Positions 14,331-37,878 of a stretch of DNA of 64,000 nt are shown here, piece after piece. The stretch's first letter is position 1. The number at the start of each line of letters is the position of its first letter. Source of the stretch: Isoetes taiwanensis (taxonomy: Eukaryota; Streptophyta; Lycopodiopsida; Isoetales; Isoetaceae). The DNA lies in NCBI GenBank assembly GCA_021234155.1, contig JAJEKV010000033.1:6624635-6688634 (forward strand). Direction: 5' to 3'. The notes under the pieces were generated by a model. That model was not told the origin of the DNA. It saw nothing but the letters and a program-made list of their open reading frames with translations, and did not search any database. The position numbers and the translations under genes were made by a program.

Positions 14331-17300
14331 CAAAGCCAATCAACTCTCAGTCTCCAGGATGGATGGATGGATGGAGCTAAAAAAAGGTAGCAGTTAAAAG
14401 AGCAGCCAAGCCAGTTAAAACTTTTGGCATAAGATGAAGTTTAAACTTTTTGTGGCATGCGATGTAGTTCTTGTTTTCCTGGCAGTGGAAATGGCATTAA
14501 CTATATCTAAAATTTGCCTTTGAAGTACTTGAAGCAATAATGAAATGCTTCAAGTACTTGGTAGTAGATTGTTCATCCCAGGTCAATCATACTATTGTCC
14601 GTAAATATTTGGCATCCTAGGAATTGGTGCCCTAGTGGTGCATCGCTCATCTCTCAATAACCAAAATCTTTTCCTAGTCGTTGTCATCATTGTTGTTATG
14701 GATAAGGTATGTCCGGGTTGCTTTTTGTGTATCTATGGAAGCCCGTGGTACTCTGCTAATATTTGTCTTTGGGTGTTGCTAATATTTCACAATTGCTAAT
14801 TGGGCCCATGATATTGTAATAAAAATTATACTTATTTTTCTATGATGTCGAAATGTCACACAAATCCTCTATACATCATCACATGTACATATATGCTATC
14901 GCATCTACATAGATACTATGTAGACAAAATGAATTAATCATCATCCACAAGACTAAGGGATATTGCAATCACCACAATAAGCAAGGACTTTGCGAATAAA
15001 ACAATAAGTCTCAATTCAATATGAGCCAGATCTGATCAACCTGTTTTGCATTTTTACATATGTTCACTTTGGGCTTGTTAATGATGCATTATATTTATGG
15101 GCAATGTTGATGGCAAACGTCTAATTTATTGCAAACACTAGAAAAATAAGTGGTTCCTTAATTCATGATGTCTGTATTTTTGGCATTATTACACCCACGT
15201 ACTTTTTGGCATTGTTTATATCGCAAATAATGTATCAAGAGACATAGCAAACATGTCGTCGTAATTAAGGAAGATGAATCAAGTGAATTTTGCTAAACAA
15301 AATGGCATCTTTGTTGTCGAATTACTCCAATAATCTATTGCATCCATATACTCTATAGTGTCTCTATACCCCTAGCTATCAAGATATATTTAATATTTTT
15401 CGTAAGTTCTAATGCCTGAGCATCATCTTCAATAACCTCAAATATGGTAGTAAAAGTTGTATTGATGCAATCTGTTGCAAGATGTCAAATCATTTATCAT
15501 TTCATGTATCTGAAGAGGCTATATTCAAAGCTGCAAACTTAAAAAGGAATGAATACGAACAACAGCGAGCAACACAATAATACACAGGATATAAACAGCT
15601 TGCATCACAGCCTTGAGAACTGACACCTCGATTAATGTTAGGTTGAGACGAAATAGGAATGAACAGGTCTTCCATAGCCACGGATTTCACTAGGGGTAAA
15701 AGAACAAACAGGATTTAGGAAATCAGACAATCATTTGTTGCTCCAAAATCGACCGCATAGTAAACTACGTTATGCATTTGTAATGTGCAGCCCCGGAACT
15801 TGTTCCTTCACCAAGGGAATAGCAAAATTAAAAAAAGAGCATAGCTGAACCTTAAACAATTACAAAGAAGCTGGAAGGGCAACTGCAACCTGGCTCGCTG
15901 GAAAAGTGCCCACTCGCAACACAAAATCTACTGCTTCTCAACATTGTATATCATATTTAAACTATAAATACTCCAACATTAGGACAACCTTTACGACAAA
16001 ATTAGCTCTAGTTATTATGGAATTTGTCTTGCAACTCAAATTTTGACTTCTATTATAAGAGCCATAAAGATAAGTACAATACATGTCTCCAAGTTTACAA
16101 ATGTTTCTTCTTCATTTATGAAGGGCAGTTTCATTTATGGCCCAAAAATGTTGATGTAAAGCATCTGAAATAAGATCCCTCCACAATATCTTGTCCAAAA
16201 GTTCCATAACCCTCCAGAATATTATGCATCTATTTGCCAAGAGACTGTTCCTAAGAGAAAACATCACGAGTGTTGTGTCTTTCACAAAAGAGGCAACAGG
16301 CAGAAGACAAAAACATCAAAAGCAGCCATGCAAAGGTGCGGGAATGGAAAGAAGACATTGCCTACATTGCTAAACAGCTCAAGGGCTTTAGCCACACCAT
16401 CTGGTCTATAAAGCAGATGACAAAAGTTCTTATAGAGAAGAAAGTGCAATAACAAAGCAAAGATGAAAAGAAGAAATAATCTAATGGAGCTTACTTGGCT
16501 AATCATGAATCTTCAAAGTTGTGGGCTTACTCTGTCGAAAACATGCATAGGCAAATCGTCCCTTAGTAAGGGCAAGCTAGCAACATTCAAAGATTCAAGC
16601 AAACATCTCGCGAATCGCTAGCATTGGCATACAAAAAATGCTCCTGTATTTGAGCTTCTCTAAAACGGAAAAGGGGAGTTAGTCGTAGGGGCGTAAAATA
16701 TCAACTCTGATCTTGGCGAAAAACAACTACAACGATACAAAAATAAGAAATCGCATAGATCTATTCCAATTTTGTGCACAAATTCTGAGAAAACATGCAG
16801 GAAGCTTAACAAACCTAAAATGATCGCGTAAATGATTAGCTTGAAAGAAAGAAGATTGGATTTTTGCAGTCCGGGAGTGTGTCCAGCCCATCTCGCCTTC
16901 TCTGCATGAATCTTGATAACACTGTGGCAAGTAAAATCATGGCTAACCATCTTGAAGATTTAAGCAAAATCATGGCCATGGATGGCCACAAACAACAATC
17001 CAAAATGGAAACAAAAAACAAGCACAACACATACAAACGTAAGAATAATCATGGCCAAATGCAAACCAACATGAAACAAACTGCTTTTCTTAGAACATTA
17101 GCATAGCTAACTAACAACTATGGATACATTCCATATTAAGCATCGACACCCAAGAAGATATAAAGGAACTTTTACCGTCTGGGATGTATTCTGTCAGTCG
17201 TGAAATTATTCACACCATAAACCTTTGTGATGCATTCTGACAGCTAAATATCTATTCAGTTATGATGCACAGATGTCCAGGCAAGCAGGCTATGAAATGA

Positions 17301-17430
17301 AAGAAGATTTGACCTCTTTCGACATTTTAGCAGAACCGTAGTTCAGCTGGGCAATGTAAATCTGGTGATTGAGCTGCACTAAAAAATCAAAGGATAAGGC
17401 CGAAGGTAGCAACTACGTTTAGAGCAGAAC
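14331..17430. other. CACTA interior, unassigned
   Basis: AT-rich sequence with no recognised domain over about 3.1 kb. (ATGG)n occurs near 14360. A plus-strand frame at 16270-16452 is Lys/Glu-rich (AYIAKQLKGFSHTIWSIKQM) and may be a coding remnant or chance. Nothing supports a gene call. Confidence 0.4.
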
Positions 17431-17473
17431 AATCATCAAAATCAAGAACTCGAAAATCAAGATAAAACCTTAC

Positions 17474-17700
17474 CACAAACAACATGCCAGTATTGGTGGC
17501 CTGCTTTCCCCACGCATCATAGTTTGGCAGAGTCATCAATTCCTGCAAAAAGATGATCTCCGCATATATCAAAAGCCCGACTTCCTTCAACATCGTAGCA
17601 TGAGTAAAAAAAGAAGCTTACCACAGGTGCATTTGCCAATCGGGGGTCCCATTTTTGCAAGCAAAAAAGGCAAGTAAAAATTCCTGTGTGTTTGATGGCA
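17474..17700 (-). pseudogene. two exon-like blocks of an unidentified captured gene
   Basis: On the minus strand a 69-bp block (17542-17474) is bounded by TTTTTGCAG and GTAAGG. It is open for 23 codons, including LPNYDAWGKQATNTGML. Upstream, a block ending at 17622 before GTAAGC reads KWDPRLANAPV. The splice borders suggest captured exons. They lie downstream of the BAHD fragment on the same strand and could belong to it, but I could not match them to a BAHD motif. Confidence 0.4.
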
Positions 17701-18049
17701 TGATAAATAGCGCACATAGTCCCAACTAGAGCACTGCCACTTAATTATAGCCCATGTCCTTGCTGTTCTTAAGCCTAGACAATTGTCTCGAAGTTCTAGA
17801 ATCTGTTATTCCAAATTAACATCACAGATAAACTGAGTCAATGTGTCGGCAACCTATTTTGGCTTTGCATATTTATCTGCATTATCTAAAAGTGGCTACA
17901 TACCATAGATTTATCTGTCATAGTGTGCATGCGATTGCAGACCACATATAGATGGTTTCGGCTCCATTCTTAGATCTTTTTTGACCATATCGCAGTTTTA
18001 CGATTGGTGAGCATACAGTAATCAATCAATCTACCTTTAAGTCTTCATC

Positions 18050-18475
18050 AAGCTTTCATCAATGGCAAAGGGCATCTTAGTTGCAAAAGGCAATCCCTTT
18101 ACATTTAGTTCTCCTACAGTGGTGTTGGCAACAGTAAAGGATGCTGCATTTCAAAAGTAATCCTCAGGTAGATCTGGCAGCCTGCCTCTGCAGTTGATCA
18201 ACATGGCAAGTGATGCGGTTATATCTGGCTGCATGCATCTTGCCTCACATATCTTCCGCCATATATGAGCAGAGACAATCTAGAATGAAGTGTAGTTGCA
18301 ACCCCCAATAGATCTTAACCTGTTTATCTCTGCTCTGTCAAAGTTGAAGCATCTTACAACCAAAGGTTCGGACGGTGCTGGCTCAGAAATGTTCAACACA
18401 TCTGATTTTAGTTTGAATCCTATGGACCATCTACCATTTGATGTGCATATGCAAACCCTAAACTGATATCTCCAC
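18050..18475 (-). pseudogene. BAHD acyltransferase fragment captured in CACTA
   Basis: BAHD enzymes transfer acyl groups from acyl-CoA to alcohols or amines in plant secondary metabolism. The minus strand reads VRCFNFDRAEINRLRS, then after one stop SAHIWRKICEARCMQPD, INCRGRLPDLPEDYF and ASFTVANTTVGEL. This matches the central part of the family: S-A-H-x-W-R, the D-x-R-x-R-L region and Y-F-G-N. The HxxxD and DFGWG motifs are not visible. In-frame stops (after NYTSF and after EDYF) and an N/C-terminal lack make it a pseudogene. Shikimate hydroxycinnamoyltransferase is a plausible source, but the subfamily is uncertain. Confidence 0.72.
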
Positions 18476-18539
18476 ATGCAAATCTGGTAATCTGCTCCAT
18501 AGATTATAGACTTTAGGGTTCATAGACAGATAAAACATA

Positions 18540-18837
18540 TCAAGAAAGCGAAAGAATCCATACCTGGATGAATAAAAGGGAGCTTTCCGGCGTCCATAGC
18601 TGGGTAGCATTATAGTCACATGTTTGGATGAGCTGAGCGGTAAAGAAAGAAGGGCAAAAATCTCCCAAATCGTCAAGAGTTGCATAGCTGAGATTAAGGG
18701 AGATGAGATTATGCCCTAGAGGGTATAAGGAAGGGATAAACATGTGCTCAACTCGCCAGAACCCTGACGGAAGGCGCGGAAGGGAGGGCAGAATCCGAGG
18801 TGCAAAAGCCATAGCCAAGTCCGGCGGATAGCGTTTG
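18540..18837 (-). other. open stretch between hairpin repeat and BAHD fragment
   Basis: A minus-strand frame of about 120 codons starts inside the 160-bp repeat (MLMTAKNWLLPV) and runs toward the BAHD fragment. No family is recognised. It may hold captured exon sequence. Confidence 0.35.
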
Positions 18838-18996
18838 TGTAGCAGGCTGATAATGGGGCTGGATGACCGACCATTTACAGGCAGCAGCCAGTTTTTAGCA
18901 GTCATCAGCATATGCTAGGTATATGCCAGCATATACTTGAATATGCCCACATACCCACATAAACGAGGGTTTGCCCCCCTAGGGGCAACCCAAAAA
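18838..18996 (-). repeat. 160-bp hairpin-tipped repeat, copy next to BAHD fragment
   Basis: Reading on minus, it begins GGTTGCCCCTAGGGGGGCAA, a hairpin (GGTTGCCCC / GGGGCAAACC). It continues with CCCTCGTTTATGTGGGT, GTATATGCTGGCATATACC and ACTGCTAAAAACTGG. It is the near-identical inverted partner of 25826-25985. Its body contains several CATATGC/GCATATG elements. Confidence 0.8.
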
Positions 18997-19265
18997 TTTA
19001 TAAACAAAGCGCGAAAGTGGGTTGTTCCCTCAACCTGGCGTCTTGAATTTGGTATATTTTTTTGCTAAAATGCGTAGTAATAGGTATCCCTAATAGTGTA
19101 GCGTATTTGGTGTATACTGAAGCAAACTTACAATTATATATTTGTAGAAGCAAATAAACAAATATTCTTAATGTTACTTAATTGCTTTCAAACATGTTTG
19201 TTGTTGCTATCAAGCGCTAACACTTTGTTATCCCTTATATATAGTTGATCAAGACCTTTCACGTA

Positions 19266-19270
19266 GAAAC
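19266..19270. repeat. copia target duplication, left copy (GAAAC)
   Basis: GAAAC precedes TGTTGGGATTT. The second copy is read on the minus strand beyond the other LTR at 28422-28426 (plus reads GTTTC). The match exists only if the two halves are put in the same orientation. Confidence 0.85.
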
Positions 19271-19866
19271 TGTTGGGATTTAACAAGTTGTTCATCATAT
19301 ATTTCTAGGTGAAGTTTATCATACTACCATGGGAACCAGCATACTAACTAGGTCAAAGATAAACTTCTCGATGGCCTAGCTACTTGTGTAAATATAAAAC
19401 TTGAAACCATGGAACCATGGTATAATATTGTTACTAAATTTATTGAGACGGTTAAGGCTACCGAAATGGAGCCAAAACCATTTAAAATGTTCCAGCTCAT
19501 GATCGGTAGATTCGGGAGCCTAAACCGACGATCCGATCACTGTACATATTGAGAAACTTGGAACAAATATATAGAAGATAAATTACAGGCAATTCCGGCA
19601 AGGCTTGAGTCATGGATTGAATTAAAAGATCGAACCATTATCGAATGATTTCCAGTCAATACGTCTACAGTGTTTGAGTCAATGCACGAATGAACAGTAA
19701 CTCTCTATTATAGTTCCTATGGTTTATTCATTGAATTATTCTATAGGTTCAAAGGTTATGCTGACTTGTGTATCCATTGCTTAAAGTTTGATTCTAGAAG
19801 AAGGTGTTTTGTTTGATCAAAGGTGTAGAGATCATTATACAAGAAAAATTGTTCTTAAATTTATCA
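19271..19866 (+). repeat. copia 5' LTR, 596 bp
   Basis: Begins TGTTGGGATTTAAC and ends TTTATCA, immediately before a primer binding site. It is nearly identical to the reverse complement of 28427-29022. By eye I saw about four single-base differences. Confidence 0.9.
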
Positions 19867-19868
19867 TT

Positions 19869-19880
19869 TGGTATCAGAGC
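19869..19880 (+). promoter_or_regulatory. copia primer binding site (tRNA-Met initiator)
   Basis: TGGTATCAGAGC is complementary to the 3' end of plant initiator tRNA-Met. It starts two bases after the LTR end. Confidence 0.9.
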
Positions 19881-19909
19881 TTGGTGTGCTTGATTATTCT
19901 TTGAACAAG

Positions 19910-21562
19910 ATGTCAAGCAGATTTGGTGCTAGTCTTTTGAGCAGTGTGGATATATTCAAAGGAGGAGCAGGCTTCCAGGTATGGAAAGATGCAATTAAAC
20001 ACATCCTTGAAGTAGAGGAGCTATGGGATCTTGTTGATCCAAAAGGTGTGGACTTGAGCAGTCCAGTTAACACCATTCAGAGGTCTGTGTCAGAAGGTTC
20101 AGTAAATGCAAATGCTACTAATGCAACTAATGCAGGTGAGACAAGTGCAAGGGAAACAATGGTCAGCCAAGGAGTAATGGCAGGAAGGTCATTGTATGCA
20201 CGCATTAAGGAGGCTCAAGGAATCATCTCTTGCAAGGTAAGCTCTACCATTAGGCTTAAATTGAGAGATAAAAGTCCTAGGCAGATGTGGAAGTTTCTAC
20301 TTGAGAACTATGAGGAGAAGACCTCTTCACAGATTGAATTATTGGAAAATGAACTAAGAAGCTTAAAGCTTCAAGTAGAAGGGGATGTATCAGAATACTT
20401 TAACCAGTTTGATAACATTATTGCTGACATGTCAGCAGCAGCAGTAAATGTGTCAGAAAGGAGTCAAGTCTTACAAATTTCTAGAGCCATTGACAATGAA
20501 CAACTAGGATTATTCATAAGGAATATGTGTAAAACACGAGAAGAAGCTGAAAAAGTGTTGAGAACAGAATTTGAGCAAAAGAAATTAAAGGAAGGAGAGG
20601 ATACTGCTGAAATACTTCTCACTGGTGCAAAGAAGCAGATTACATGTTATTATTGTCATGAGAATGGTCATTTTAAAAGCCAATGCCCTAAACTAAAAAA
20701 GGAATTTAGCTGTTATAACTGTGGAGGTAAGGGGCACATGGCTGCCAAATGCTCATCTCCCAAAGATTACAGTCAAGGGAGAGGAAGGGGAAAAACTCCT
20801 AGGGGAGGAAGAGGTGTTGGAAGAAAAGATGGTAGCAGACCTGCAGGTGTTCATATCACCAAGGCAACTGAAGAAGCAAACAAAGAGGAGTCCCAAGATG
20901 AGAATGAGGTAAATAACTTGTTGGTAGCACAAAATGCAAATTCTGAAACTAATAAAAGGCATGATGTTGTTGTAGTTGATAGTGGAGCTGAGAGATCAGT
21001 AGTTCAAACTACTGATCTACTCCAAACTATTGATGCTACTCGAAAGAGCAAAATTCAAGTTGGAAATGGAGAAGTGCAACTTGCTGAAGGATCTGGATTA
21101 TTGCAGCTGATAGATTTAGATGGAAATGTTGTTGACATAGAAAATGTTTTGTGTGTGCCTACTTTGATCAAAAACTTGATCTCAGTTAGTCAACTAGTTG
21201 ACTTGGGATACAAGATAAACTTTGATTCCAAAGGATGTAGTATTTATCTTGATAATATATTGAAGTTTTATGCCAAAAGGTTCGGTAATCTATTTCAAAT
21301 GGAGGGAGCAATTAAAAGTAGCATAAATTGCATTATTAATTCTGATACAGAGTTATGGCATAACAGGTTAGCTCACACTCATTGCAACAATATTAAATAC
21401 TTGGCAAAAAAGGGATGGATTTCTTGCAGAGATGACAAGTCAGACAAACTTATGTGTGAAGGATGCATGCTTGGTAAAATAAACAGGCTGCCATTCAAGA
21501 AGTCAGCAAATAGAGCTAAACATGTACTAGAATTAGTACATACAGACTTTGTGGACCTCTGA
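19910..21562 (+). pseudogene. gag: copia gag-protease and pre-integrase, separated from pol
   Basis: The ATG at 19910 (MSSRFGASLL) is preferred over the in-frame TTG that overlaps the primer site. The order is a Gag helical region (UBN2-type), two CCHC knuckles (CYYCHENGHFKSQCP and CYNCGGKGHMAAKC, about 20650-20755), the protease active site VVVVDSGAERSVV (about 20968) and the gag-pre-integrase zinc region (LWHNRLAHTH through CEGCMLGK, about 21350-21480). It ends at VHTDFVDL plus stop at the LINE-1 junction. In an intact element the frame would run on into integrase. That continuation is found at 31690 on the minus strand. Confidence 0.9.
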
Positions 21563-21565
21563 ACA

Positions 21566-23060
21566 TAAGGAAGGAAGGAAGGAAGGTACTTTTATCGTCC
21601 ACGGAGACCAATCGGTCTATGGGACCCAATACAAAAACGCAGCAAGCGGATTACTGCCCGGATTAAAAAACCCCCGCCCCGAAGGGTTTTCGAGGGAAAA
21701 ACCGTGGCAGCAATCAGCCTGCTGACAAACTAATATACAAAATGTAGAAACACCCAAATATATACAGTCATGCACCGCACCCGCAGTGCCTAATCAGCGA
21801 GCAGCCAGGCGGGGGCAAAGGTGACCTCGCAGGTCCAGTACCTCCTGAATGTACGACCCCAGGGCACGTACTGACGGTGTGTTCATCAGCAAATCTAAGG
21901 GCAAGTCCGGCCGTACTAAGGGAGCGTATCTGGCCCGGATGTGACTGAACGCTGGGCAACTCTGGAAAGTGTGAGGCTCATCCTCAATGGCACCCGTTTG
22001 ACAAGACCGACAGAGTCCGGCCCCGGGGCTCCCCAATCCACCGCCTGTCTCGATCGCGAAGATGGTGGGCACTGTATGCTTAATGGAGGCAATGAGTCTC
22101 CGCGGCTTTTCGTGGGCAGCTGGGAACGCAGGTAGAGCTGTGGGCCCCGGGCTAACACGGGGTTGATGTGCTCCTTGTAATGGGCCGTTTTGACCTGCTC
22201 TAGAGCGCCGGGGTCCCAGAGCTTGCCAAGGAAACAAGCGTCTAGCATTAGGGATTTTTTGAGATCATAAAAGGGCCTTCTAAGAATTGCTGACTAAGCT
22301 ATATGAACTACCAATCAGAAAACAGAACTGGTAATCCAGTCAGCAAAACAGTTATAACTAACTCACTGGATCACATTTTCTAGCATAAGTGTTGATAGAA
22401 AAGTCTAAATGAGCTCTTGTTTGGTGCAATAGATAGATCTCATTGAGTTCTTTCCAACCTTGGGTGGTTTGCATATCTTTTAGCCCAGTAGGATAGTAAA
22501 AAATGGTAAAAAACCATATTTTTTGGAGCTTTGACAATCATAAGTGGTTAAAATATGTGCAAAGCACCTAAGGTTGGAAAGATCTCAATGAGATCTATCT
22601 ATTGCACTAAACGAGAGCTCATTTGGACTTTTCTATCAACAGTTATGCTAGAAAATGTGATCCAGTAAGTTAGTTATAACAGCTTTGCTGACTGGACCCA
22701 TCAGGCTCTGATTTCTGATTGGTAGTTCATTTATCTTCATTTGGCTTAGTTGGCATATTTTGAAGGCCCTTTTTTAATCTCAAAAAAACCCTAATGGGTA
22801 CTCCCGCAGGCTGTCACGATCAGCCGCTGTGTCCACCTGCACGCATCTGTGCTCCTGCACGTTCCATCTGGCGAACCACTGATCTCTCTTACCCCTCCAA
22901 CAGGCCCTAAGCCGCTGCGGACTCATTGCCACAGTGTAAGCCAGGTGCGGGAGCCGAGCATCACCCATAGTAACCACTTTCAATAGACGATGTGTCTATC
23001 AAGGGCTGCCGTCACATAGACCTGGTGGTCTGCAGGCGCATATATTTATAAACATTTCAT
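21566..23060 (-). mobile_element. LINE-1: 3' part of an antisense non-LTR element (ORF2 C-terminus)
   Basis: The minus-strand frame, interrupted by a MITE, reads RACWRGKRDQWFARWNVQ, then (after MITE removal) LDACFLGKLWDPGALE. It ends in a Cys-His cluster, CRSCQTGAIEDEPHTFQSC, equivalent to the C-terminal zinc motif of LINE ORF2 (compare CKLCKMEVVEDEVHVLLQC in LINE-2). Its 3' end is a (CTTC)n tract at 21576-21595 abutting copia gag. It is the 3' piece of the element whose 5' piece is at 31705-34637. Confidence 0.75.
22251..22791. mobile_element. 541-bp foldback MITE with TA target duplication
   Basis: Ends are GGGATTTTTTGAGATC and its near-complement at 22775-22791. TA flanks each end (22249-22250, 22792-22793). 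Almost the whole element is self-complementary (for example AATAGATAGATCTCATTGAG with CTCAATGAGATCTATCTATT). Removing it with one TA restores the LINE-1 reading frame exactly, so its borders are firm. The TA duplication suggests Tc1/mariner-related mobilisation, though the ends are not the classical Stowaway CTCCCTCC. Confidence 0.88.
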
Positions 23061-23066
23061 TTCATT

Positions 23067-23211
<145 letters not shown>

Positions 23212-23216
23212 CTCTC

Positions 23217-24894
<1,678 letters not shown>

Positions 24895-24940
24895 TTTATA
24901 TTGCAACATATTTAATTATACTTCATGCACATTGCTGCAG

Positions 24941-25740
24941 CATATACTACCATGTGTGATAGGAGACTTCTTGAGCCCACAAGTGAGGAGCATTATATAT
25001 CGATTGGGTAAATTTGCAAGATGGGTGTCTTCAAAGGAAATTGAAGTGGCTGAGATATCAAATGTGGAGGAGGAAGTGATTCTATTGCTTTGTGACATTG
25101 AAAAAGAATTTTCCACTAGTTTTTTTGACCTACAGGTACAAGTAAACATATTTTTATGCAACTACAGTAATGTATTCGTAGCAATTCTAAGTGTAAATTA
25201 ATACCATACTTACATCTACAGGTACATCTATTAATACACATCCCAAATGAGATTAGATTGGCTGGACCTGCTCCTAGCAGGTGGATGTTTTTTCTAGAGC
25301 GTTATATGAAGGTGCTCAAAGATTTTGTGCGCCAAATGGCAAGACCGGAGGGTTGCATGGCTGAAGGGCATCTTGTACAGGAAACGCTTTTTTATTTAAA
25401 TGATGCCACGAGCTCATGCCATCCCGATGGTCCTAAATTATGGGAAAAGGAAGAACCCAAGGAGATCACGTCAGAAGTATTACAAGGCAAGGGAATAGAA
25501 CGAAACTTGAGCGATGACATGCTTCATGCAATAAGCACATTTGTCATTAATAATACTGCAAGCTTACAACCATGGAGGGACTTGTATGAAGTTGCTAAAG
25601 AAGATAGGTTGTCAGGACGGTCTATTTTGCCAGATGTTATCGATAACACATGGTTGTTGGCTCGTATGGATGAAGCTAAAGAAAGTGGACAAGTGATATC
25701 AGATGATGATTATGAGATTGCCCTTGGCTGCAGTAGGAAG
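24941..25740 (+). pseudogene. CACTA transposase DUF4218 exons
   Basis: Exon 24941-25135 reads HILPCVIGDFLSPQVRSII and ends before GTACAAG. Exon 25222-25740 reads VHLLIHIPNEIRLAGPAPSR, WMFFLERYMKVLKDFVR and RPEGCMAEGHLVQETL, the hallmark of DUF4218 (W-M-x-F-E-R-Y, RPEG-x-I/M-x-E-G). It continues open to GCSRKV before GTGCGT. It follows TNP2 copy 1 in the same orientation, as in an intact CACTA gene. DUF4216, which should come next, is 10.8 kb away and reversed. Confidence 0.9.
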
Positions 25741-25825
25741 GTGCGTAATTGTAAATCTTGATGCGTAGTTTTATTTTCGTGACATTTTACTTAGAATAAT
25801 ATTTCTTTATTTTTTGGTTGCCCCT

Positions 25826-25985
25826 AGGGGGGCAAACCCTCGTTTATGTGGGTGTGTGGGCATATTCAAGTATATGCTGGCATATACCTAGCATATGCTG
25901 ATGACTGCTAAAAACTGGATGCTGCCTGTAAATGCTCGGTCATCCAACCCCATTACGATGGAGGAAGCAGCGGAGGTAGATTTGG
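25826..25985 (+). repeat. 160-bp hairpin-tipped repeat, copy next to ACCase fragment
   Basis: Plus strand begins GGTTGCCCCTAGGGGGGCAA and continues as in 18996-18838 on minus, through ACTGCTAAAAACTGG and GGTCATCCAACCCC. The two copies diverge right after CCCATTA, at the start of different captured sequences. Confidence 0.8.
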
Positions 25986-26197
25986 AGCTCACTCTTGGAT
26001 TTACTCCCAAAATCACAAATCGAAAGCGGACAAAGCCAGCTTCTGATTCTTTATGCCCTTCGCATGATCAGGTCACAGGATGTTGTCTAGTGAAGTCCGT
26101 GCCAGAAAAAAAGGGAAGAGGCATTTTAAAGGTGCTAAAACAGCATGAAAATAACGTTGGAGCAAAGAAAAGAAGGAGAGTGCAAGTTGGAAAATAG
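25959..26197 (+). pseudogene. captured exon-like ORF with an EAR-like motif
   Basis: From ATG 25959 an open frame reads MEEAAEVDLELTLGFTPK. DLELTL resembles the LxLxL EAR repression motif of plant transcription factors. It ends in a basic stretch (KKRRRVQ) and a stop at 26195-26197. The gene of origin is not recognised. It lies between the hairpin repeat and the ACCase exons on the same strand and may be a separate captured fragment. Confidence 0.4.
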
Positions 26198-26539
26198 ATC
26201 TGCAAGCGTAGAAAGGTTAGATTTGAGAATGAAGTTATATCGGCCCCATCAACGGAGAGCAGTGGGCAAAATGAAAGTGGTGTATATGGGCGATTGGCTT
26301 CGCTTTAATCCAAATGCCCGAATCAATACAGGATTTTTATCCTTGCAAAACTTTGCAACATATTGAGAGCTCCTTGTCGATCGCCTTTGGGTTACTACCA
26401 AAGGCCGTGGTAAAATCGTTAGCGGTTTCCTTTTGAGATATCACAAAGAATCAGAAAAATTGTTTGCAAAATGCCATGGAATCATATTCAGTCCTAGGGA
26501 GTTTGTGCAAAGACGCCTGCTTGATTGTAGGGTTGGGAT

Positions 26540-27900
26540 TTTGCACATTCTTTCCCTTGTTAACTTCCAAGTGATGATGAACATTGACGGAATGAAATAC
26601 ACGGTGCAAATCCTTGACTTCCATTTCTTTTGAACACCTTCATACTTTCACTTGGACTGTCTCTGAATGTTCATGCTATCTTTTTTCAGTTTGAGATGAC
26701 AAAAGGGGGCCCTGGAAGTTACAAACTTAAATTGAACTCATCTGAGATTGATGCTGAGATCCACACGCTTCGGGATGGCGGGTTTCTAGTCCAGGTTAGT
26801 TGTTGCTACTAGAAATTTTTTGTGCACCTCTTTCATAGCCACAACTTGGTTTTGTCATCCACTAAAGCATATGTTAAAATACAAATATCAAAAGCATTGG
26901 TGAATTCCCTATTGCATGTAATTTAATGTATATGTTCTCTGCCGCTGAACTGATCTTAATTGTTAGCAGCTTGATGGGAACAGCCATGTTGTATATGGTG
27001 AAGAAGAGGCTGCTGGGACATGGATCCTTATTGATGGCCGGACATGCCTACTTCAGGTTGTCAGGAAGATATAATGACTATTAAGTATCAGAGTTCAAGT
27101 ATACTGGTTGTTTAATGTATGGTCCTTAATTGCAGAATGATCATGACCCTTCACGCCTTACTGTTGAAACACCATGCAAGTTGCTTAGGTTCCCATGATC
27201 CGTGCAGTTCACTTCAAGTTGACAGAGGGTCGCTATCTTTGGTAAGTGGTTAGGCCTTTTTCTTCTTGCGGGATGATAGAATGTAACTAAAAGTTTATTT
27301 TTTCGCAGTTTGGTGATTTGATTGGGTTCTTCGGACTTGGATGATCCTTCTGGCCTGAAGAAAAAGTACCCTTTGAAAGCAACTTTCCACGCCTTGGCAG
27401 CCCTACACCAATTCCCAAAGAAAGAACATCAACGCTTGTGCGGCAAGCATTAATGCAAGCACATATGGTGCTAATGGGATATGAACATGATATTGATGAG
27501 GTGATATTTCGGGCAACACATATTTGCAATTTTTGCTATGCTTACAAAGTAATGGTTATAGAACATTGTTTGAGAAATCATATTGCGTTGCTCTTTCTTA
27601 AAGCAGGTGGTGCAGACACTTTTAAATTGTCCGGATGATCCACAATTGCCACTTGTTCGATTGGCAAGAGTGTATGGTCGTGTTAGAAGCAAGGCTTCCA
27701 AAGCAACTCAAGGCGGAGGTAATTTATCTACTTGTATAATGCCCTTTTATGTCTTCTGTATAAATTAACTTTTCTTACAATCTTGACAATAACTGCAGCT
27801 TGATACGATATTTAAAGATTACGAGACCTCATCCAACACAGATTGGGGAGGTGCAGACTTTCCAGCAAAGTCTCTCTATGCAGCACTAGAGGTAATGCTT
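26540..27900 (+). pseudogene. acetyl-CoA carboxylase (homomeric) fragment captured in CACTA
   Basis: Exon blocks with introns match the eukaryotic multidomain ACCase around the biotin-carrier region. They read SLVNFQVMMNIDGMKYTV (to about 26620), GPGSYKLKLNSSEIDAEIHT and LRDGG (26690-26794), LDGNSHVVYGEEEAAGTW and LIDGRTCLLQ (26970-27056), NDHDPSRLTVETPCKLLRF (from 27136), AVHFKLTEGRYL, AQAHMVLMGYEHDIDEV and VVQTLLNCPDDPQLP. Introns keep GT-AG borders (for example 26795-26969). ACCase makes malonyl-CoA for fatty-acid elongation. Here the biotin-attachment block (EVMKM) is missing between LLRF and AVHF, and several frames are broken. It is a gene-fragment capture. Confidence 0.9.
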
Positions 27901-28420
27901 TTCCTTAAAACATTCCAAGGCATTGCCATCCAAGTGAATTAATCTAATAGATTGATTTACTCTTTTCAGAATTGTATCATTGCAATAGCATCTTTGGATT
28001 GCATGTACCGATCTTTTTCAAAATGGCAATGGATCCCTATCGTGCTAAATATAAACCTGAGGTCACATCTGCTGCATTCCATGCTTGTTTAGATCGGCTT
28101 CTACCTTGTACCTTGCACTTTGTGCTTAGAGACTATAGACACTGTATATTAATCAAATAAGCCACATCATCTACAGTATTTTCTTGTGCATCTTCATCTC
28201 CTTATAGTGACATATCTTGCACTTTGTGCTTGGTCAAGCTCGAGTATGAACTTTAATTCCAATTCAAACTCATATATGTAATAAGATTTCAGATGGAACA
28301 TAAATATATTCTAGGAATACTATTAACGTTGGCAGAAAATTTAAGTGCTTGAAGTGGTACTTAACTTCTCTGATCATTTTTATATTTAAGTCTATTCATC
28401 ATTGGATATGATTATGCCAC
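27901..28420. other. end of captured segment, unassigned
   Basis: After a 5' splice site at about 27892 there is an acceptor-like TTTTCAG at about 27969 and an open frame of about 60 codons of unknown identity. Then comes AT-rich sequence up to the copia target site. Confidence 0.4.
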
Positions 28421-28421
28421 C

Positions 28422-28426
28422 GTTTC
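28422..28426. repeat. copia target duplication, right copy (GTTTC on plus, GAAAC on minus)
   Basis: It lies directly outside the minus-strand LTR end. It equals GAAAC at 19266-19270 when read on the minus strand. Confidence 0.85.
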
Positions 28427-29022
28427 TGATAAATTTAAGAACAATTTTTCTTGTATAATGATCTCTACACCTTTGATCAAACAAAACACCTTCTTCTAGA
28501 ATCAAACTTTAAGCAATGGATACACAAGTCAGCATAACCTTTGAACCTATAGAATAATTCAATCAATAAACCATAGGAACTATAATAGAGAGTTACTGTT
28601 CATTCGTGCATTGACTCAAACACTGTAGACGTATTGACTGGAAATCATTCGACAATGGTTCGATCTTTTAATTCAATCCATGACTCAAGCCTTGCCGGAA
28701 TTGCCTGTAATTTATCTTCTATATATTTGTTCCAAGTTTCTCAATATGTACAGTGATCGGATCGTCGGTTTAGGCTCCCGAATCTGCCGATCATGAGCTA
28801 GAACATTTTAAATGGTTTTGGCTCCATTTCGGTAGCCTTAACCGTCTCAATAAATTTAGTAACAATATTATACCATGGTTCCATGGTTTCAAGTTTTATA
28901 TTTACACAAGTAGCTAGGCCATCGAGAAGTTTATCTTTGACCTAGTTAGTATGCTGGCTCCCATGGTAGTATGATAAACTTCACCTAGAAATATATGATG
29001 AACAACTTGTTAAATCCCAACA
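28427..29022 (-). repeat. copia 3' LTR, 596 bp, minus orientation
   Basis: On minus it starts TGTTGGGATTTAAC and ends ATCA, with the same length as 19271-19866 and nearly identical sequence. The polypurine tract GAAGAAGGAG (29032-29023 on minus) directly precedes it. Confidence 0.92.
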
Positions 29023-29094
29023 CTCCTTCTTCATCATATATTTCTGCATCTTTCTGAAAAATGGTACAGTTCTAACTCCATTCACTGTAAAATT

Positions 29095-31690
29095 TTAACT
29101 GCCTTTTGCATCATGAACATTTTCTCCTGTAACATTCATCTGCTGCTTGAATTTTGTGAATTTGCTTTCAACAAGAGCTTTTGTGAGAATGTCTGCTGTC
29201 TGATTCGATGTATGAACATAACTCATCTGTATATAACCTTTAGCTGCCAAATCCCTTATAAAATGAACATTCAGTTCAATGTGTTTGGTCCTGTCATGAT
29301 CTACATGATTTTTTACAATCGCCATACAACTCTGACTATCAGTGAAAATGTGTGTTGGTTTTTCTTGACCACAATCTAACTCATTCATTAGCCGTCTTAA
29401 CCATGCAATCTCTTTGGCAACCAGGGATGCAGCCACATACTCAGCTTCAGCTGTGGACATTGCTATGGCTTTCTGCTTTTTTGTTCTCCATGCTATAGTG
29501 CCACCTCCTAACATTACTACATATCCTGAGGTAGACTTTCTGCAGCTTAAATCTCCTCCCCAGTCAGCATCACTAAAAGCCTCCATTGTGAAGTTTGATG
29601 AATGGTAAGTTAGGCCATTGTTCATAGTACCTTTTAAGTACCTAAGTACCCTTTTTCCAGCTATCCAATGCTGCTTGCTAGGATTGTGATTTCTTCTGCT
29701 AAGGATATTAACAGCATATGCAATATCTGGCCTTGTGTTGTTTGCTAAGTAAAGCAAGCATCCAACCAGAGCTCGATAAGGAATTTCCTCCATTTCTTTT
29801 CTTTCAGTTTCTGAAATTTCTTCTTCTGCAGTCAGCTTATGGCCTGGAACTATTGGGGTCTTAACAGCGTTGGCCTGATCAAGGTTGAACCTTTTCAACA
29901 TATTATCTATATGTCTATGTTGTGTGAGCTTCAAAATCTTTTCCTGCCTGTTTCTTGTGACTTCTATTCCAAGGAAATGTTTTAACTCACCAAGATCTGT
30001 CATTCTGAACCTGCTCTTAAGTATCTCTTTGCAATGATTCAAACATGACTTGCTGTTTGCAAACATAATGCAATCGTCCACATAAAGAGCAATTATGCAG
30101 TATTCTCCTTCATTTTTGAACTTGTATAAGTTACCATCATTTTGTAATTTTTCAAACTTCTGTTCTCTGAGATACTTGTCAATGCAATTGTCCCTGGGTG
30201 ATTGCTTTAGGCCATATACAGCCCTATTCAATTTCCATATTTTGTTTTCTCCTTGCTCAAAGCCAGCTGGTTGCCTGAGGTATACATTCTCCTCCAATTT
30301 TGCATTTAGGAATGCAGTCTTCACATCCATATAATGCATTTCCAAATCCAGAGCATTGGCTATTGATAATAGCTTTCTAAGACTAGTTAGTTTGACAATT
30401 AAAGAATAAGTCTCCTCATAATCCTCTCCCTTTTTCTGGGTAAATCCCTGAGCCACTAGTCTAGCCTTGTGTTTCAAACTGCCATCTGCATTTGTCTTTA
30501 ACTTGAAAAGCCATTTGCTGCCTATTACATGTTTGTCTGCAGTGTTTTCTACAACATCATAAGTATGTGTTACCTTAAACGAGTCCATCTCCTCATTCAT
30601 TGCATTGATCCACATTTCTCTGTCTGAACTAGTCAACACCTCCTCATATGACCTCGGGACACTATCATCCTCTGTTATGCTCAGAATCTGATCATGATCT
30701 ACATGTAAACCTTGTAATCTTCTGCTTTTCCCTGTCTTAGTCCTGCCATATCTGTCCATGTCTATGTGAGTGTCCTCTAACAGTTTGTCTGCCTGATTTT
30801 TCCTTTGTTTCTCAACTTGGTTATCTGGTTGCTCTTCATGTTCATCTGCTGCACTTTCTTCTTGAATATGCTCAGCTGCAGTTTCAGTTAGATTATCATC
30901 CTTTGATGAGTCATTATCATCTAAGTCCAACTTTGTAAGGTCCTTGACCTGATTTTCCATTTGTTTTGCTGCTCTTTCCTGCTTATCAATGTCTGCTCCT
31001 TTTGTTTCATAGTTTCTCATTCTGTCCTTGTAAATAATATTCTCGTTGAATAAGACATCTCTGCTAATAATTATATGCTTAGAGATTGGATTATAAATCC
31101 TATAACCTTTTGCTTCCTCGGCATACCCTACTAAATAACCTACTTCAGCTTTGTTGTCCAATTTCTTCCTTAATTCATGAGGAATGTGAACATAAGTTAA
31201 GCATCCATACGTTTTGAACCTGTCATAATCAATCTTTTCATCATTATTAAACCAGAGGTTTTGAGGTACATTACCTTTAATGGCAGCAGTAGAAAGTTTG
31301 TTTTGAACAAGTGTGGCAGTTTTCAAAGCCTCCTCCCATAGATAGTTTGGAAGACCACTTTGTTTGATCATAGACCTAACAGCATCCATGAGTGTCCTAT
31401 TTTTCCTCTCGGCCACTCCATTTTGTTGGGGGCTAAACCTGCAAGTCATCTGCCTTTTAATGCCATTAGCAATGCAAAACAGTCTAAACTTTGTGGACAA
31501 ATATTCTCCTCCTCGATCTGACCTTATACACTTTACTTTGTTACCAGTTTCTCTTTCTACCTCGGCTACATATTGTTTAAAGGCTTGCAATGCTTGAGAT
31601 TTTCTTGCAAGGCAGTAAACTTTGCATTTTCGAGAGTAATCATCTATAAAGGTAATGAAGTACCTTTTATTTGATCTGCTCTCAGAGCCT
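29095..31690 (-). CDS. pol: copia pol: integrase, reverse transcriptase, RNase H
   Basis: Open on minus for about 865 codons of element sequence. The integrase core has FIDDYSRK, IRSDRGGEY and GVAERKNR, the D-D-E triad. RT has KHKARLVAQGFTQKKG, MDVKTAFLNAKLEENVYLRQ and the catalytic IALYVDDCIMF. RNase H has FSDADWGGD, AMSTAEAEYVAAS and HIFTDSQSC and ends before NQTADILTKAL. It lacks gag, because the frame starts at a LINE-1 junction (about 31690-31713, where extra LINE-derived codons precede SRSNKRYFITF). The missing upstream part is at 19910-21562 on the opposite strand. Domains look intact, so the element was active recently. Confidence 0.93.
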
Positions 31691-31704
31691 GGAGCTCCAG
31701 GGGT

Positions 31705-34637
31705 TGCGGGCAACCATCAATAGACAGAGCCAGGGTCTCCCTGCCGAGGTTCATAGTCAGCTGCAGCAGTGCAGGCAGGAGATGGCCAAGCGGCGGAAGA
31801 GCCACCAAAAGCTATGCTCCCGATTTCCTGAGGGGCCGAACGCGGCTCGGCCGCTACCTGCCCACGGCCTCCCACGCCGGCGGCCGGGCCCCGCCTTGCT
31901 GCCCCGCACTCCAGCCACTCCACGCCATCCCAGCCACCACCACCACCCCCCCAGCACGGGACCCGGCCCTCGCCCACCTTTGACCCGCGCAGCCGCTTGA
32001 GAACTCGGGAGGCCTTGGCGGAGAGGCCCAATCCGGTAGTTCGAGGCATGCCGAGCGGCGAGGGAGAGTCTCGCCCACAATATCCGAACACACATTCTCG
32101 ATCGGATGACATTCCCGGGGCCAGTTCACATTTCTCGAACAGCCCGTCATGGGGTTCAACGCCCGGGCCGTGACCGCATTGTCATATTCACGGTTGCGGA
32201 TGCAGTGCGTGATGCCATATTGCGCCAGGCTGATGCTGAGGGGACATCCACATGCGTGGACCGGGACCTCACACCCGCGCAACAGGAGGCACGCAGACAT
32301 GAGCTTGTCAGGGTCAGAGGCATTCGCCACCAGGGGGGTGCCGCAGGATTGGTTCGAGGCAGGATGCACATTTTTCCGATAGCACGCTTCTCGCTGCGGA
32401 ACCGTAGCCCCAACCGCCGGTTTGCCGTGGCCCCTTACGCTTCTTCTACCACGGCCCCCCTTCTCTCCTGCTCCTACTCCTGCTCCCTCCCACGACCCAT
32501 GCCCCTCGACCACATCTTGCCTCCGGTCCATCTACTTCTCTTTCGGCCTCGCTTCCCGTCCTCCCCGCTGACTTCGAGTGCGCGCATACCATCCTGGCGA
32601 CAAATAGGAATTGTGCCTCCGGGTGGTCTCATGGAATTGTCGAGGCTTCCCTTGGCGAGAAGGGGACGATCCCGAACTCCAAAGTGGCGGCCGATATGGA
32701 TCTCATCTTTCTCATGGAGACATGGGAGCATCTTTCGGGCACGAGGCTTCGTGATCTGTAGGGTTACCAACATTTCTCGGTCTTCAATACATGTACAGGA
32801 CAGAGGGGTCATGGTGGAGTGGCTTGCTACTACCGGACAACCTTGGCACATTCGGTTACCCTTCAGAAGACAGACAGACACAACCGGTACTTGTGGGTTC
32901 GTGTGCATAATACCAGTGGCAACCCTCTTTTTCTGGCCGCCTGTTATTTCCCTCCTTGACGGTACCTTCTATCGCAGCCACCCCGATGCGGATAGGATGG
33001 ACCCTTATGTCGATCTATATGATGATATACAGCAGCACCAGTAGTTGGGTAGGGTCGTCCTTCTTGGAGACTTCAATGCACGGACATGAGTAGAGCAGCC
33101 CATGCGACTTGACCCCCTCGCTGACGATGCCCTGCAGCTACACCCCGCAGAAGCAACCTGGCCACGAGCATCGGATGACAGCCAGGTCACTCGCTTTGGC
33201 AGACAGTTGCTCCTCCTATGTGGTATTTTTGACTTGATAATTTGCAATGGCACATCACGCGGTGGCCGATTCACCGCAAGTGCACATGCGACGGGACAAT
33301 CGGGGGGATGGTCTAGTGTGGTGGACTATGTGCTCGTGAGTTGCGCCAAGATATGCATCTCGTCGGTCGTTTTTAGGGTGGGCGCAGGGGGTCGGGATGA
33401 GGAGGTCGACTCGGATCACCTCCCACTTTATTTGGACTTGGTTTGGCAAGCGCGGGAACCCCACTATGCCAGCCCCCTCGCCGTCCTCGGTTGAGACTAG
33501 ATTATGGCGTGCGGAGGACTACGCCGAGATGCTCATGGGCGCCCTCCCGGTAGTGCGGACCTCCACACTAGAGCAGCAGATGCCAGGACCGGTGACTTAG
33601 CTATTACGGGATGCGGCCGGGCCGGGTGCTTTGGCAGAACCTCCCCTTCCCCCCTCCCGCCCGCTTCGGGGTCAGCAACATTCAGCGTAACCGATGGTTT
33701 GATGCGGAGTGTAAAAACGCATAGCGGCAGCTCCGTCACATTACGGATCCGGTACCCGCTTGGTTAGGCCACCCACGCATCGCGCCCATCCGAAGGAGAC
33801 AAAGGCGCCGTACCTTGCCGTGCATCGGGGAGATGTTGACCGGGCTTTGGACACTCATCCTCGAACCTTTGGCGCCTTGAGAGTGCTTCAAGGCCAGCCC
33901 GACCCTCTGAGGGGACATCACACCGAGGCGGTGGAAGATTTGCTGCGGCGGCTCTATGACCCGCCAGGGACGCCAGACGCCCATACCCCCCCCAGGATGG
34001 CCCCATTGGTTCTCGTGGAGGAGGATGTTGAGGAGGGCACGCAACGGTGGCTAATGGGAAGGCGGTGACCTCGATGGTATGCGTGCCGAAGTTACTCAAA
34101 TGGGCGGGGCGGTTTGCTTGTCCGGTCCTCACTACCCCTGTTCAACAGAGCATTGCGGGGAAGGTCTCCCCGACAATGGACCACAAGCGGGGTTGTTCCC
34201 ATTCACAAAGGCGGGCGACCCACACCGTCCGGCCAATTACGGACGATCATGGTTAGCTTCGGTATTTGCCAAAGCTATATCGGCATTCTCGGCGGCGGTT
34301 GACCCGGTAGGCGAGAGGCGCCAGATGTGCGAGCCCTCACACAGGCAGGCTTTAGACCCCGCCACTCAACGATTGACCATATCTTTACACTGCGGGCACT
34401 GATTGAAGACAGCCGGAATCATCGGCAGGACTTGTATTGCTGCTTTGTGGACTTCGCGAAGGCTTTTGATACGGTTCCCCGGGAAAAGCTGTGGGCTAGA
34501 CTGCGTCAACTGGATCTCCCGCTGCCTGTGCAGAATGCCATATACAGGTTGTATGAGAGTTGTTTTGGCAGGATGCAGCCGACGGGCCAAGCATTCACCA
34601 GTAGTATTGGGGTCCGGCAGGGTTGCCCCCTATCATG
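31705..34637 (+). mobile_element. LINE-1: 5' part with ORF1 end, endonuclease and RT start
   Basis: GC-rich. It contains the end of ORF1 (frame near 32106-32380: RDRIVIFTVADAVRDAILRQ, then RDLTPAQQEARRHEL), then a decayed ORF2. APE-type endonuclease motifs are ACYYR, LLGDFNAR (about 33062), VDYVLVS (about 33321) and SDHLP (about 33412). RT motifs are QAGFRPRHSTIDHIFTLRAL, CFVDFAKAFDTVPREKL and GVRQGCPLS (34346-34635). It breaks off at GCPLSCP, where LINE-2 abuts it, and its YADD part is absent from the window. In copia orientation it is an antisense insertion between gag and pol. Confidence 0.85.
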
Positions 34638-34639
34638 TC

Positions 34640-37600
34640 CTCTAGTGCATCCTCTGAAAGAAATGCACTAGACCCCTCTAACTCATCCTCTCGTATCTCT
34701 TGGATGTTAAGTTTCCTCAACATTATGTCCCTATGATCCAAGATTTTAACAATATAGTCACCGATTATGATACCTGGCATATCAAAGAAAGCTATCAAGT
34801 TACCACAAACAATATTATATGTATCTCTGATGCTTTTGTATTGCGGGCACTGTAGAAGCACATGCACTTCATCCTCAACCACTTCCATCTTGCATAGCTT
34901 GCAGAGTCTCAACTCATGGGGAATATTGCTCCAACGCCCAACTTCAACGCCAAGATGGTGTGAGCTAAGTCTCATTCTGCCAATTGTATGCCTTAACTTT
35001 AATGACACTCCTTCCCTCAAATATCTTGGAACTTGAAGTTGTGGACTGATATTCTGTCTGTAATATTCCTTCTTGACTTCTGGCACTCTCCATGATTTCT
35101 CCATAACATGTTCCAGCACCCACTCCCTAATATCCGCATGATGTTCGGCCAATCTAGATACATCTAAATCCCACTTTCTCATCCAGTTTTGTATATCGGC
35201 ATACCACCCTTTACATTTCGTTGCCTCCAAGGCCAATCGCGGTAAACTTGATACTGGCATTTCCTGTACCTTGCATACATACTTAAGCGTTCGGCACAGG
35301 GCTTCTGATTGCAATGATGTCATCCCACACTCGGCCAATAGCATGTCATATGGTGTCTGTGACTTAACACCGAGCTCTGTTCTGAGAAACTTCTTCTGTA
35401 CCTTTTCTATTTTCCTCCAAGTCTCCTCGGCCAATCCTGGAGCCCATACCTCACAGCCATACAACAATACTGTTTGCACTAGAACCCCATATAACTGCTT
35501 TTTCAATTGGAAGTTCCATATCTCATTTTTTCTACTGCTGCGCTGCATACTATATAATGCTTTCAGCCACCATTTATCCTCTGCTCTACAGCATAGTTCC
35601 AACTCGGGCTTTTATCAACCTGTATCCCTAGATATTTATATGAATCCACCAGTTCTACCGGTTCCCCCTTGTAAACAAGGTGTATGTGATCCACTTTGTT
35701 TGCCCCGAACACAATTATTTTAGTCTTTCCCATGTTCACTTTCATACTCTTGTGGTCACAAAATTCAGCCAATCCATCTAAATGTTTCTGTATTCCAGCA
35801 ATTGACCTTGACAAAAGCACTACATCATCCGCATATAAAAGTAAGAACACCACAAACCTCTCTAGAGCCATACCATCCCCTCCGTTCTGCATCATCCAAT
35901 CTTCTAGTTGGTCTATGAACAACCCAAAAAGAGTGGGAGACATGGGACATCCTTGCTTTACACCTATGTTGCTTACTACTGGTTCCTGGCCTTCTCTAAA
36001 ATAAGGAAAAGATAGCTGCACAAGTACCTTCTCATATAGTATTTTGACTGCTTGCTTTAGCTCGTTTGGCACTCCCAGTTTTTCCATGCGCTCCCATAAA
36101 TTGTCTCTGTCCACCATGTCAAAAGCTTTTGTAAAATCTACAAATAACATATAAAGTGGTTTCCTCGTTCCTGTAACTATATCCATCATCGCTCTCAAAG
36201 TAACCAAGTGATCTATGGTGGACCATTTGGGTCTAAAACCCGCTTGTCCTATAGCTCGTACACCCATTTCTTCTGCCCATCCACTTAGTTTGCTATTAAC
36301 CATAGTAGCAAAAAGCTTAGCATACAGGCTGCTGATCATAATCATCCTATAGTTGCCAGGATCTGACTTATCACCCACTTTATGTAAGGGAACAACCCTG
36401 TTTATTTGCCATTCCTGTGGGAAGCCTTCTCTCAATACCGTATTCATTAATTTCAGCAATATTTTGTGTATCTCCTCTCCTGCCCACTTAAACATCTCCG
36501 CAACCAGCCCCAAGTTATCTGCAGCTTTCCCATTTGCCAATGTTTCTAACCCCCCCTGTATATCTTCCATTGTGAATTCCCATTCTATATTTAAATCTGC
36601 CAGAGCAGTGTCTTTTATGCCTGGTACATTGTATATATTTTTAACTTGGCTGAATAGTGGTTCTACCTCAAGCAACTCACCTTGTTCCATTCTTGGCTTA
36701 AGCCTTGCCCAAAATTTCTTAGGCTCTACCAGCAAATCTCCAATCATTCGCATGTGTTTTTGGTATAGAAACTTTTTCTTTTTCGCTTTCACTAGTAACA
36801 TATATTCCCTCTTAGCCATGATTTTCTCCTCCCCCCTTGCATGTTTAAATTTTTGTCGTTTTGCTTTGCATTCCCCATCAAACCAACTGTTGCACGGTAG
36901 CCCTTTTAACCTGCGTTGGGAGACAAAACATTTCCTTGTTGCCTCTATTACCAATCAATCCTTGCACATGGCACAGGATTCACATAAGGAGTTGTACTCC
37001 TCCGCTTTGTTATACTGCATGTATATCTTTTTACTAGGGTTGTCCACCACTTTTCTTGCAATCTCTTGGCGTTTAATATGCATAGTAACAAAGATAGGCA
37101 CATGATCTGATTCCGTCCTTTCTTCACCAACATCTACATCTGAAATAGTTCTCGTTAATCTCGGGCTAGCTATCACTAAGTCCACCACACTAGCACCTCT
37201 GCAAGTGGGCTTACCAGAGTTCCTGTATTTTTGGAGACCATTATAGATGACCATATCGAGTCCTGTACACATATTTAGCACATGATTTCCTTGTGGTGTG
37301 GGCCACCTAATTCTATCTGCTGACTCTCTATGCCACCCTAGTTCCTTCATCTCATTTCCGTCATTCATTTCCATCCATAAAGGATCTCCTTCGATACTAG
37401 TCATTGCTGCTTGCTTCTGTGCTATCCTGCCATTGAAGTCACCCATTAGGATCACTTCTCCCTGCTGCATTAACTTTAGAACATCTTGTTCTAGGTCAAA
37501 AAAGGGATCATCCCTATCTATTTGCCCCCAGTTATAAACTGGTGATTCACGAGGCGGGTAGTAACACCCTGCTACGTATATTTTATTCAGTGGTCCCGCT

Positions 37601-37878
37601 ATCTCAATCCATATATATTGCAAAGATTTTATGCCATGCACTAACTGTATCATCCCTCGCAGCTCATGTTTTATGTAACAAGCAATCCCACCGAATCCCT
37701 TAAGCCTCCAGTGCTTATGATGCCATACTGAGTGCAGACATATAAAACCTGGAATGTCTAATATCCCTTTTTCCTCATTTTCACAAGTTTCTAACAGAAA
37801 GAAAACATCTACTTGTTCAACAATATCACTCATAGTTGCTACTTTAGTTGAGTTCAAGCTGTTTATGTTCCAACACAT
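34640..37878 (-). pseudogene. LINE-2 ORF2: endonuclease, reverse transcriptase, zinc motif
   Basis: The endonuclease part (37878-36955) has MCWNINSLNS, GGIACYIK, ILMGDFNGRI and TESDHVPIF. After a single in-frame TGA at about 36957 the frame continues as RT (36954-35563): VPLHKVGDKSDPGNYRMI, QAGFRPKWSTIDHLVTLRAM, LFVDFTKAFDMVDRDNLWER, GVKQGCPMSPTLFGLFID and the catalytic LLLYADDVVLLSRS. A frameshift near 35590 moves the frame to 35602-34640, which holds LLYGCEVWAPG and the CKLCKMEVVEDEVHVLLQC zinc motif. It would nick target DNA and prime reverse transcription. One stop and one frameshift disable it. Confidence 0.92.

Follow-up and report, generated by a model that had tools for sequence, protein, structure and literature searches.

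We consider it very probable that the locus described here is a nested stack of transposons, in which a CACTA element carries element X, X carries a copia element and copia carries a LINE (LINE-A), and that this stack was disturbed by one small inversion. The window, that is, the whole 64,000-nucleotide stretch of Isoetes taiwanensis DNA that was analysed, contains no N and lies in a 15.8-Mb contig of an assembly that comprises 1110 contigs and 1.66 Gb. The locus is a new example of known processes, ordinary in kind and unusually legible: five nested transposons together allow a single small inversion to be proved and to be dated relative to most of the insertions. The obvious candidates for its breakpoints, the split ends of copia and a big inverted repeat, were both wrong, and the true breakpoints were found only by comparing other copies of each element. 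The relatives used are only those fetched from longer match lists (LINE-A, 43 matches; LINE-B, a second LINE, 45; CACTA/X, 46). No report of the locus was found in a limited literature search, although one may exist. The features are as follows (TSD, target site duplication).

12686..12688, host CACTA TSD CCT, left; the same CCT stands at 44513-44515 in direct orientation, beyond the inversion
12689..14147, minus, 3' part of host CACTA with terminus CACTACAAGAG (relatives L025-L032)
14143-14147, TSD AAAAA of X, the last 5 bp of the CACTA 3' part
14148..19265, minus, element X (unclassified), one part (X relatives)
19266..19270, plus, copia TSD GAAAC (sequence and X relatives)
19271..19866, plus, copia 5' LTR (LTR alignment)
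19868..21571, plus, copia gag to pre-integrase part, stopping at the LINE-A insertion
21572..23008, minus, LINE-A 3' part with (AAGG)n tail (L034-L044, L011)
22246-22796, foldback/MITE-like insertion within the LINE-A 3' part (palindrome)
23008..23009, inversion junction 1, LINE-A with LINE-B 3' end
23009..23215, plus, LINE-B 3' end with (CT)n tail (L028, L032; L057-L062)
23216..24890, plus, P2, an additional copy of part of CACTA, with its end in the (CT)n of an intron-like stretch
24891..25815, plus, CACTA continuation, DUF4218 exon (Pfam and relatives)
25811-25815, second TSD of X, inverted
25816..28421, plus, element X, other part, with an acetyl-CoA-carboxylase-like fragment near 26680-26800 (X relatives, Pfam)
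28422..28426, minus, copia TSD GAAAC, read on the minus strand (sequence and X relatives)
28427..29022, minus, copia 3' LTR (LTR alignment)
29023..31681, minus, copia integrase and reverse transcriptase part (Pfam domains and relatives)
31682..34634, plus, LINE-A 5' part, apparently 5'-truncated (L034-L044)
34634..34635, inversion junction 2, LINE-A with LINE-B body, placed to within a few bp
34635..39219, minus, LINE-B body with endonuclease and reverse transcriptase (Pfam and relatives)
39220..39263, (GA)n tract between LINE-B and the PIF/Harbinger-like element
39264..41770, PIF/Harbinger-like element with DDE_Tnp_4 ORF (minus), Myb-like ORF (plus) and terminal inverted repeat TGCGTYGGCCACATGCT
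41771..43457, minus, (GA)n tracts and P1, the original CACTA stretch
43458..44512, minus, 5' end of host CACTA with terminus CACTACAAGAG
44513..44515, host CACTA TSD CCT, right

The copia element and its two halves

The first-pass annotation had placed an LTR and gag on the plus strand and pol with a second LTR on the minus strand, and both the LTR alignment and the Pfam domains bear this out. Both LTRs (19271-19866, plus, and 28427-29022, minus) have a length of 596 bp, they are inverted relative to each other, and when the alignment proposed for this pair was run they differed by five substitutions without gaps (99.16% identity, divergence 0.84%). Each runs from TGTTGGG to TTTATCA. GAAAC lies directly before the plus LTR (19266-19270), and 28422-28426 again gives GAAAC when reverse-complemented, so that the matching TSD outside the minus LTR is there as claimed. 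The left ORF (564 aa, 19868-21562, plus) matched Retrotran_gag_2, zf-CCHC, Pol_BBD and gag_pre-integrs in Pfam, and the right ORF (872 aa, 29095-31713, minus) matched rve (residues 15-95, starting at profile position 22), SH3_retrovirus and RVT_2 (383-622). The halves are therefore complementary, one covering gag to pre-integrase and the other integrase and reverse transcriptase. A primer binding site, TGGTATCAGAGC, which presumably matches initiator tRNA-Met, lies two bases past the 5' LTR. With TG/CA LTRs, this primer binding site, a 5-bp TSD at a site that is found unfilled elsewhere, and integrase located before RVT_2, the element is of the Ty1/copia type. At the split, its left half extends as far as ~21571 and its right half as far as ~31681. 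The interval 19266..31713, which had been assigned to copia as a whole, closes with 32 bp that belong to LINE-A.

The LTR search of the genome gave at least 41 matches. In all four fetched relatives that cover the junction between the halves (L009, L010, L011 and L013), the end of gag and the start of pol abut within 1-2 bp, as the first-pass annotation had expected: left homology extends to 21569-21571 and right homology starts at 31680-31681, with a 2-bp overlap or a 1-bp gap, and short pieces from the four loci run uninterrupted through the junction point. The outer flanks of copia are element X, contiguous in X relatives, and the unfilled site CACGTA-GAAAC-GGTGGC, with a single GAAAC and no copia, was present in all three X relatives printed (L019, L021 and L024); L020, L022 and L023 were left out of this comparison, L020 and L022 having no coverage of the exact point. 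From these comparisons we take the two halves to be one copia insertion. The sole support for two separate copia copies, each with one half lost, is that the halves are on opposite strands, whereas the abutment within 1-2 bp, the GAAAC common to both halves and the outer flanks that are contiguous in X relatives all stand against it. The exact abutment, the matching TSD and the unfilled site thus leave practically no room for two copies and bear out the single insertion that the first-pass annotation had supposed.

LINE-A within copia

A single LINE, LINE-A, has its two ends in the sequence after 21571 and in the sequence before 31681 (read on the minus strand), and inversion breakpoints at the copia split were rejected for this reason. 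The LINE-A search gave 43 matches, from which 11 besides the copy in the window were fetched (L034-L044). All 11 run through the sequence at 31.68-34.63 kb, continue with 612-639 bp that are absent from the window, and resume at 23010 (23004 in L042, 23012 in L041 and 23009 in L036) to extend down to 21567-21601, omitting in every case the foldback at 22246-22796. Three of the six ORFs tried from LINE-A relatives were above the Pfam cut-off (RVT_1 in L034, Exo_endo_phos in L038 and L040); the match in L042 was below it, and no Pfam match was obtained for L034:3380-4534 and the ORF of L036, or for the two plus-strand LINE-A ORFs of the window itself. In L040 and L044, homology, read by eye, reaches upstream of the point equivalent to 31681, and therefore the LINE-A in the window appears to be 5'-truncated, as is usual in LINEs. 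The overlap at its site in copia is only 0-2 bp (GA), with no clear target duplication there.

By comparison with these relatives, we judge that copia was split by LINE-A, between its gag and integrase parts, before the inversion. The earlier proposal of a single insertion later broken by an inversion is thus right as to one insertion and a later inversion, but it was LINE-A and not the inversion that cut copia.

A related LINE-A interrupts a different copia from this family (L011:2137-3507), where the overlap at the insertion point is 14 bp. The foldback at 22246-22796 is one of three large imperfect palindromes in the window, foldback or MITE-like, the others being at 9736-11394 and 50579-51033. 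In addition, a 19-bp unit (AACATGCCACGTAGGCTCA and variants) forms three arrays, at 53035-54791, 56178-56536 and 57830-58360; a piece near 56.5 kb is inverted.

Host CACTA transposon and element X

The termini of the host CACTA, at 12689 and 44512, are both outside the inversion, and its TSD, CCT, is therefore in direct orientation on the two sides. Pfam matches were to Transposase_21 (E 7.1e-8) and DUF4218 (E 1.4e-19), with a sub-threshold match to DUF4216 at 13195-13944. The search with the CACTA/X stretch gave 46 matches, and all eight CACTA relatives fetched from it (L025-L032) connect 25815 to 14147; the X site was unfilled in all seven that were printed, L029 having been left out.

Element X has a 5-bp TSD, AAAAA, and GGT... 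ends, and is present in several other copies (L019-L024). AAAAA, which as a run of A is weak evidence alone, lies at both ends of X and is inverted at one of them, and X thus provides a second TSD that matches only after inversion. Pfam detected no transposase in any X ORF tried and gave no match for four further X frames. The stretch of X at 26618-26809 matches the BT domain of acetyl-CoA carboxylase (E 1.6e-6; 28.4 bits, cut-off 27). This fragment had no match among solved structures and is apparently a captured piece of a host gene. A 147-bp stretch occurs twice in X (18851-18997 and 25809-25955), 3 kb apart and in the same orientation before the inversion, and the pair is likewise present in L019, L020 and L024. 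A reading of these 147-bp copies as the LTRs of a 3-kb X was rejected, because X relatives extend beyond the second 147-bp copy.

LINE-B and the inversion breakpoints

The first sign of the breakpoints came from L028 and L032, in which the body and the 3' end of LINE-B are joined. In the window, LINE-A homology ends at 23009, where the LINE-B 3' end starts, and the LINE-B body ends at ~34635. Six of the 45 matches from the LINE-B search were fetched as short pieces (L057-L062), and in all six the body runs to 34635 or 34638 and is followed by 4-30 bp (4 bp in L060, 29-30 bp in the other five) and then by the sequence from 23010 on. The protein search with the LINE-B reverse transcriptase gave 359 matches, and the best 120, which were listed, include liverwort, fern and gymnosperm names, among others; with the CACTA, copia, LINE and PIF/Harbinger-type proteins, these names indicate a land plant.

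The inverted segment is thus ~23009-34634, ~11.6 kb, with one end in LINE-A and the other in LINE-B. A single flip of 23009-34634 makes CACTA, X, copia, LINE-A and LINE-B all continuous, and since both LINEs become continuous when this segment is turned, the breakpoints are inside LINE-A and LINE-B, not at the copia ends or in the repeats at 41-44 kb, a region that the first-pass annotation had proposed to check with long reads. The copia TSD, which had been offered as the proof of the inversion, does match after inversion; it is one proof among several, because the TSD of X, both LINEs and the order of CACTA need the same flip. At each junction the partners share 1-2 bases, read by eye, and no second copy of either junction was found in the window.

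It has been described in PMC5080602 that inversions arise by three routes, namely cut-and-paste, recombination between repeats, and staggered breaks, and that breakpoint duplications are tied to staggered breaks, with inverted duplications at the ends of inversions in Drosophila. Here one flip restores the breakpoints without any breakpoint duplication, which by the criteria in PMC5080602 points to the cut-and-paste route, two breaks with end joining; the breakpoints also lie outside the inverted repeats, contrary to what recombination between repeats would leave.

The 1.68-kb inverted repeats

P2 (23216-24890) and P1 (41779-43457) are 98.2% identical, the CT tract included. Outside the CT tract they differ at ten substitutions and several indels (~0.7%), and the differences are clustered, with eight of the substitutions within 24112-24259. 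CACTA relatives remain collinear with P1 through 43457 (L046, L047, L048 and L056 from 42898; L049-L051 from 43264-43324), whereas P2 homology ends at the equivalent point. At nearly all differences between P1 and P2, one copy agrees with the relatives, and both are without an ~840-bp stretch of L048 at 42897/42898 (equivalent to 23776/23777). The common gap, together with the agreement with relatives, suggests that P2 was copied from the same CACTA copy, and P2 looks like a local extra copy within CACTA. Before the inversion, P1 and P2 were in direct orientation, separated by the PIF/Harbinger-like element and LINE-B. Within P2, substitutions and 2-bp gaps are crowded together at 24109-24131; they are missing from P1 and from the relatives that cover this stretch, and look like one complex mutation.

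P1 and P2 are not the breakpoints, yet they are a possible flip site for the assembler or for recombination, and they are the main worry about the assembly. An inversion by recombination or staggered breaks at these repeats (23.2 and 41.8 kb) would fit the inverted duplications that are the footprint of staggered breaks at inversion ends in Drosophila (PMC5080602), but undoing a flip there does not restore the five elements and leaves LINE-A and LINE-B in separated or permuted pieces, whereas reversal of 23009-34634 restores both, and P2 adjoins the CT tail of LINE-B, not the LINE-A breakpoint. A duplicative inversion or recombination at the repeats was rejected, since the relatives place the LINE-B 3' end at 23009, and we regard it as exceedingly improbable.

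It is also improbable, to a lesser degree, that the order is an assembly error in which the assembler crossed between the two repeats and the copia halves are truly direct. The repeats are long and similar, and their placement is as given by the assembly. However, the window has no N and is within the 15.8-Mb contig, outside the CT tract P1 and P2 can be told apart by the ten substitutions and several indels, and the alternative order leaves LINE-B circularly permuted. The copia LTRs would be in direct orientation if 24891-41778 were turned, whether by the assembler or in the cell, and their inverted state rests on the correct placement of the two repeats.

Slightly less doubtful, although still unlikely, is a circle of P, the PIF/Harbinger-like element and LINE-B, joined via (CT)n and opened in LINE-B, which inserted into LINE-A, after which the P copies recombined and turned the segment. 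According to this, the circular block would have re-entered the locus in LINE-A and been flipped via the P copies, with two orientations possibly still alternating within the population, and the (CT)n tracts would be landing sites of LINE-B and the PIF/Harbinger-like family. Its novel junctions are the same three (23008/9, 23215/6 and 34634/5) as in the favored history, the length, inverted orientation and 98-99% identity of the P copies speak for it, and gene conversion might blur the argument from P1/P2 ancestry. On the other hand, it requires three events against two, and the gap shared by P1 and P2 at 42897/42898, with the agreement of one copy with the relatives at nearly all differences, demands that the circle originate at this locus or a near-identical one.

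(CT)n flanks LINE-B and the PIF/Harbinger-like element at 23072-23203, 39220-39263 and 41771-41949; the loci considered besides the window are L057-L064, L029 and L032. A long (CT)n follows four of six other LINE-B copies, with a short tract in L060 and none in L057, and upstream of the LINE-B copy on C1031 (L064) there are a PIF-like end and (CT)n. For the LINE-B copy on C1, the piece fetched from upstream (L063) had no match in the window. No CT/GA tract of at least 20 bp was found in 74.8 kb of eight fetched loci, and the six such tracts in the window are all in one nest and thus non-independent. These sequences suggest that LINE-B and the PIF/Harbinger-like family often adjoin (CT)n tracts, an association that can be tested genome-wide.

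Order of events and mechanism

In the history that we favor, a nested stack disturbed by one inversion, CACTA would have come first, followed by X into CACTA, copia into X and LINE-A into copia, with the inversion last; the LINE-B insertion and the 1.68-kb duplication would both precede the inversion. P1/P2 divergence (~0.7%) is close to that of the LTRs (0.84%), and the P2 duplication needs a separate event beyond the inversion. Judging from the junctions, the inversion likely occurred by two breaks, trimming and end joining: a double-strand break in each LINE would have been followed by trimming of the ends, with a loss of 612-639 bp from LINE-A and ~30 bp from LINE-B, and by rejoining the wrong way around with at most 1-2 shared bases, thereby reversing 11.6 kb. 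The loss from LINE-A could also predate the inversion. The inverted LTRs and the TSD that matches only after inversion are by-products of the inversion.

Comparison with known systems

The copia element shares with Ty1/copia LTR retrotransposons the LTRs, the 5-bp TSD and the order gag-integrase-reverse transcriptase, and differs in that a LINE splits it and the subsequent inversion reversed its right half. Likewise, the host has the CACTA termini, 3-bp TSD, Transposase_21 and DUF4218 of CACTA (En/Spm-type) transposons, but it bears an internal duplication and at least four other transposons. The absence of breakpoint duplication, the small losses and the 1-2 shared bp are as in the two-break cut-and-paste inversions described in PMC5080602. 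In contrast to those, this inversion is just 11.6 kb long with both ends in nested LINEs, and a large inverted repeat nearby imitates the other two routes. Nested transposon stacks in plant genomes have reportedly been dealt with by REANNOTATE (PMC2672092). As in such stacks, the insertion order could be deduced here from which element interrupts which, while the difference in this locus is that an inversion cuts across the stack.
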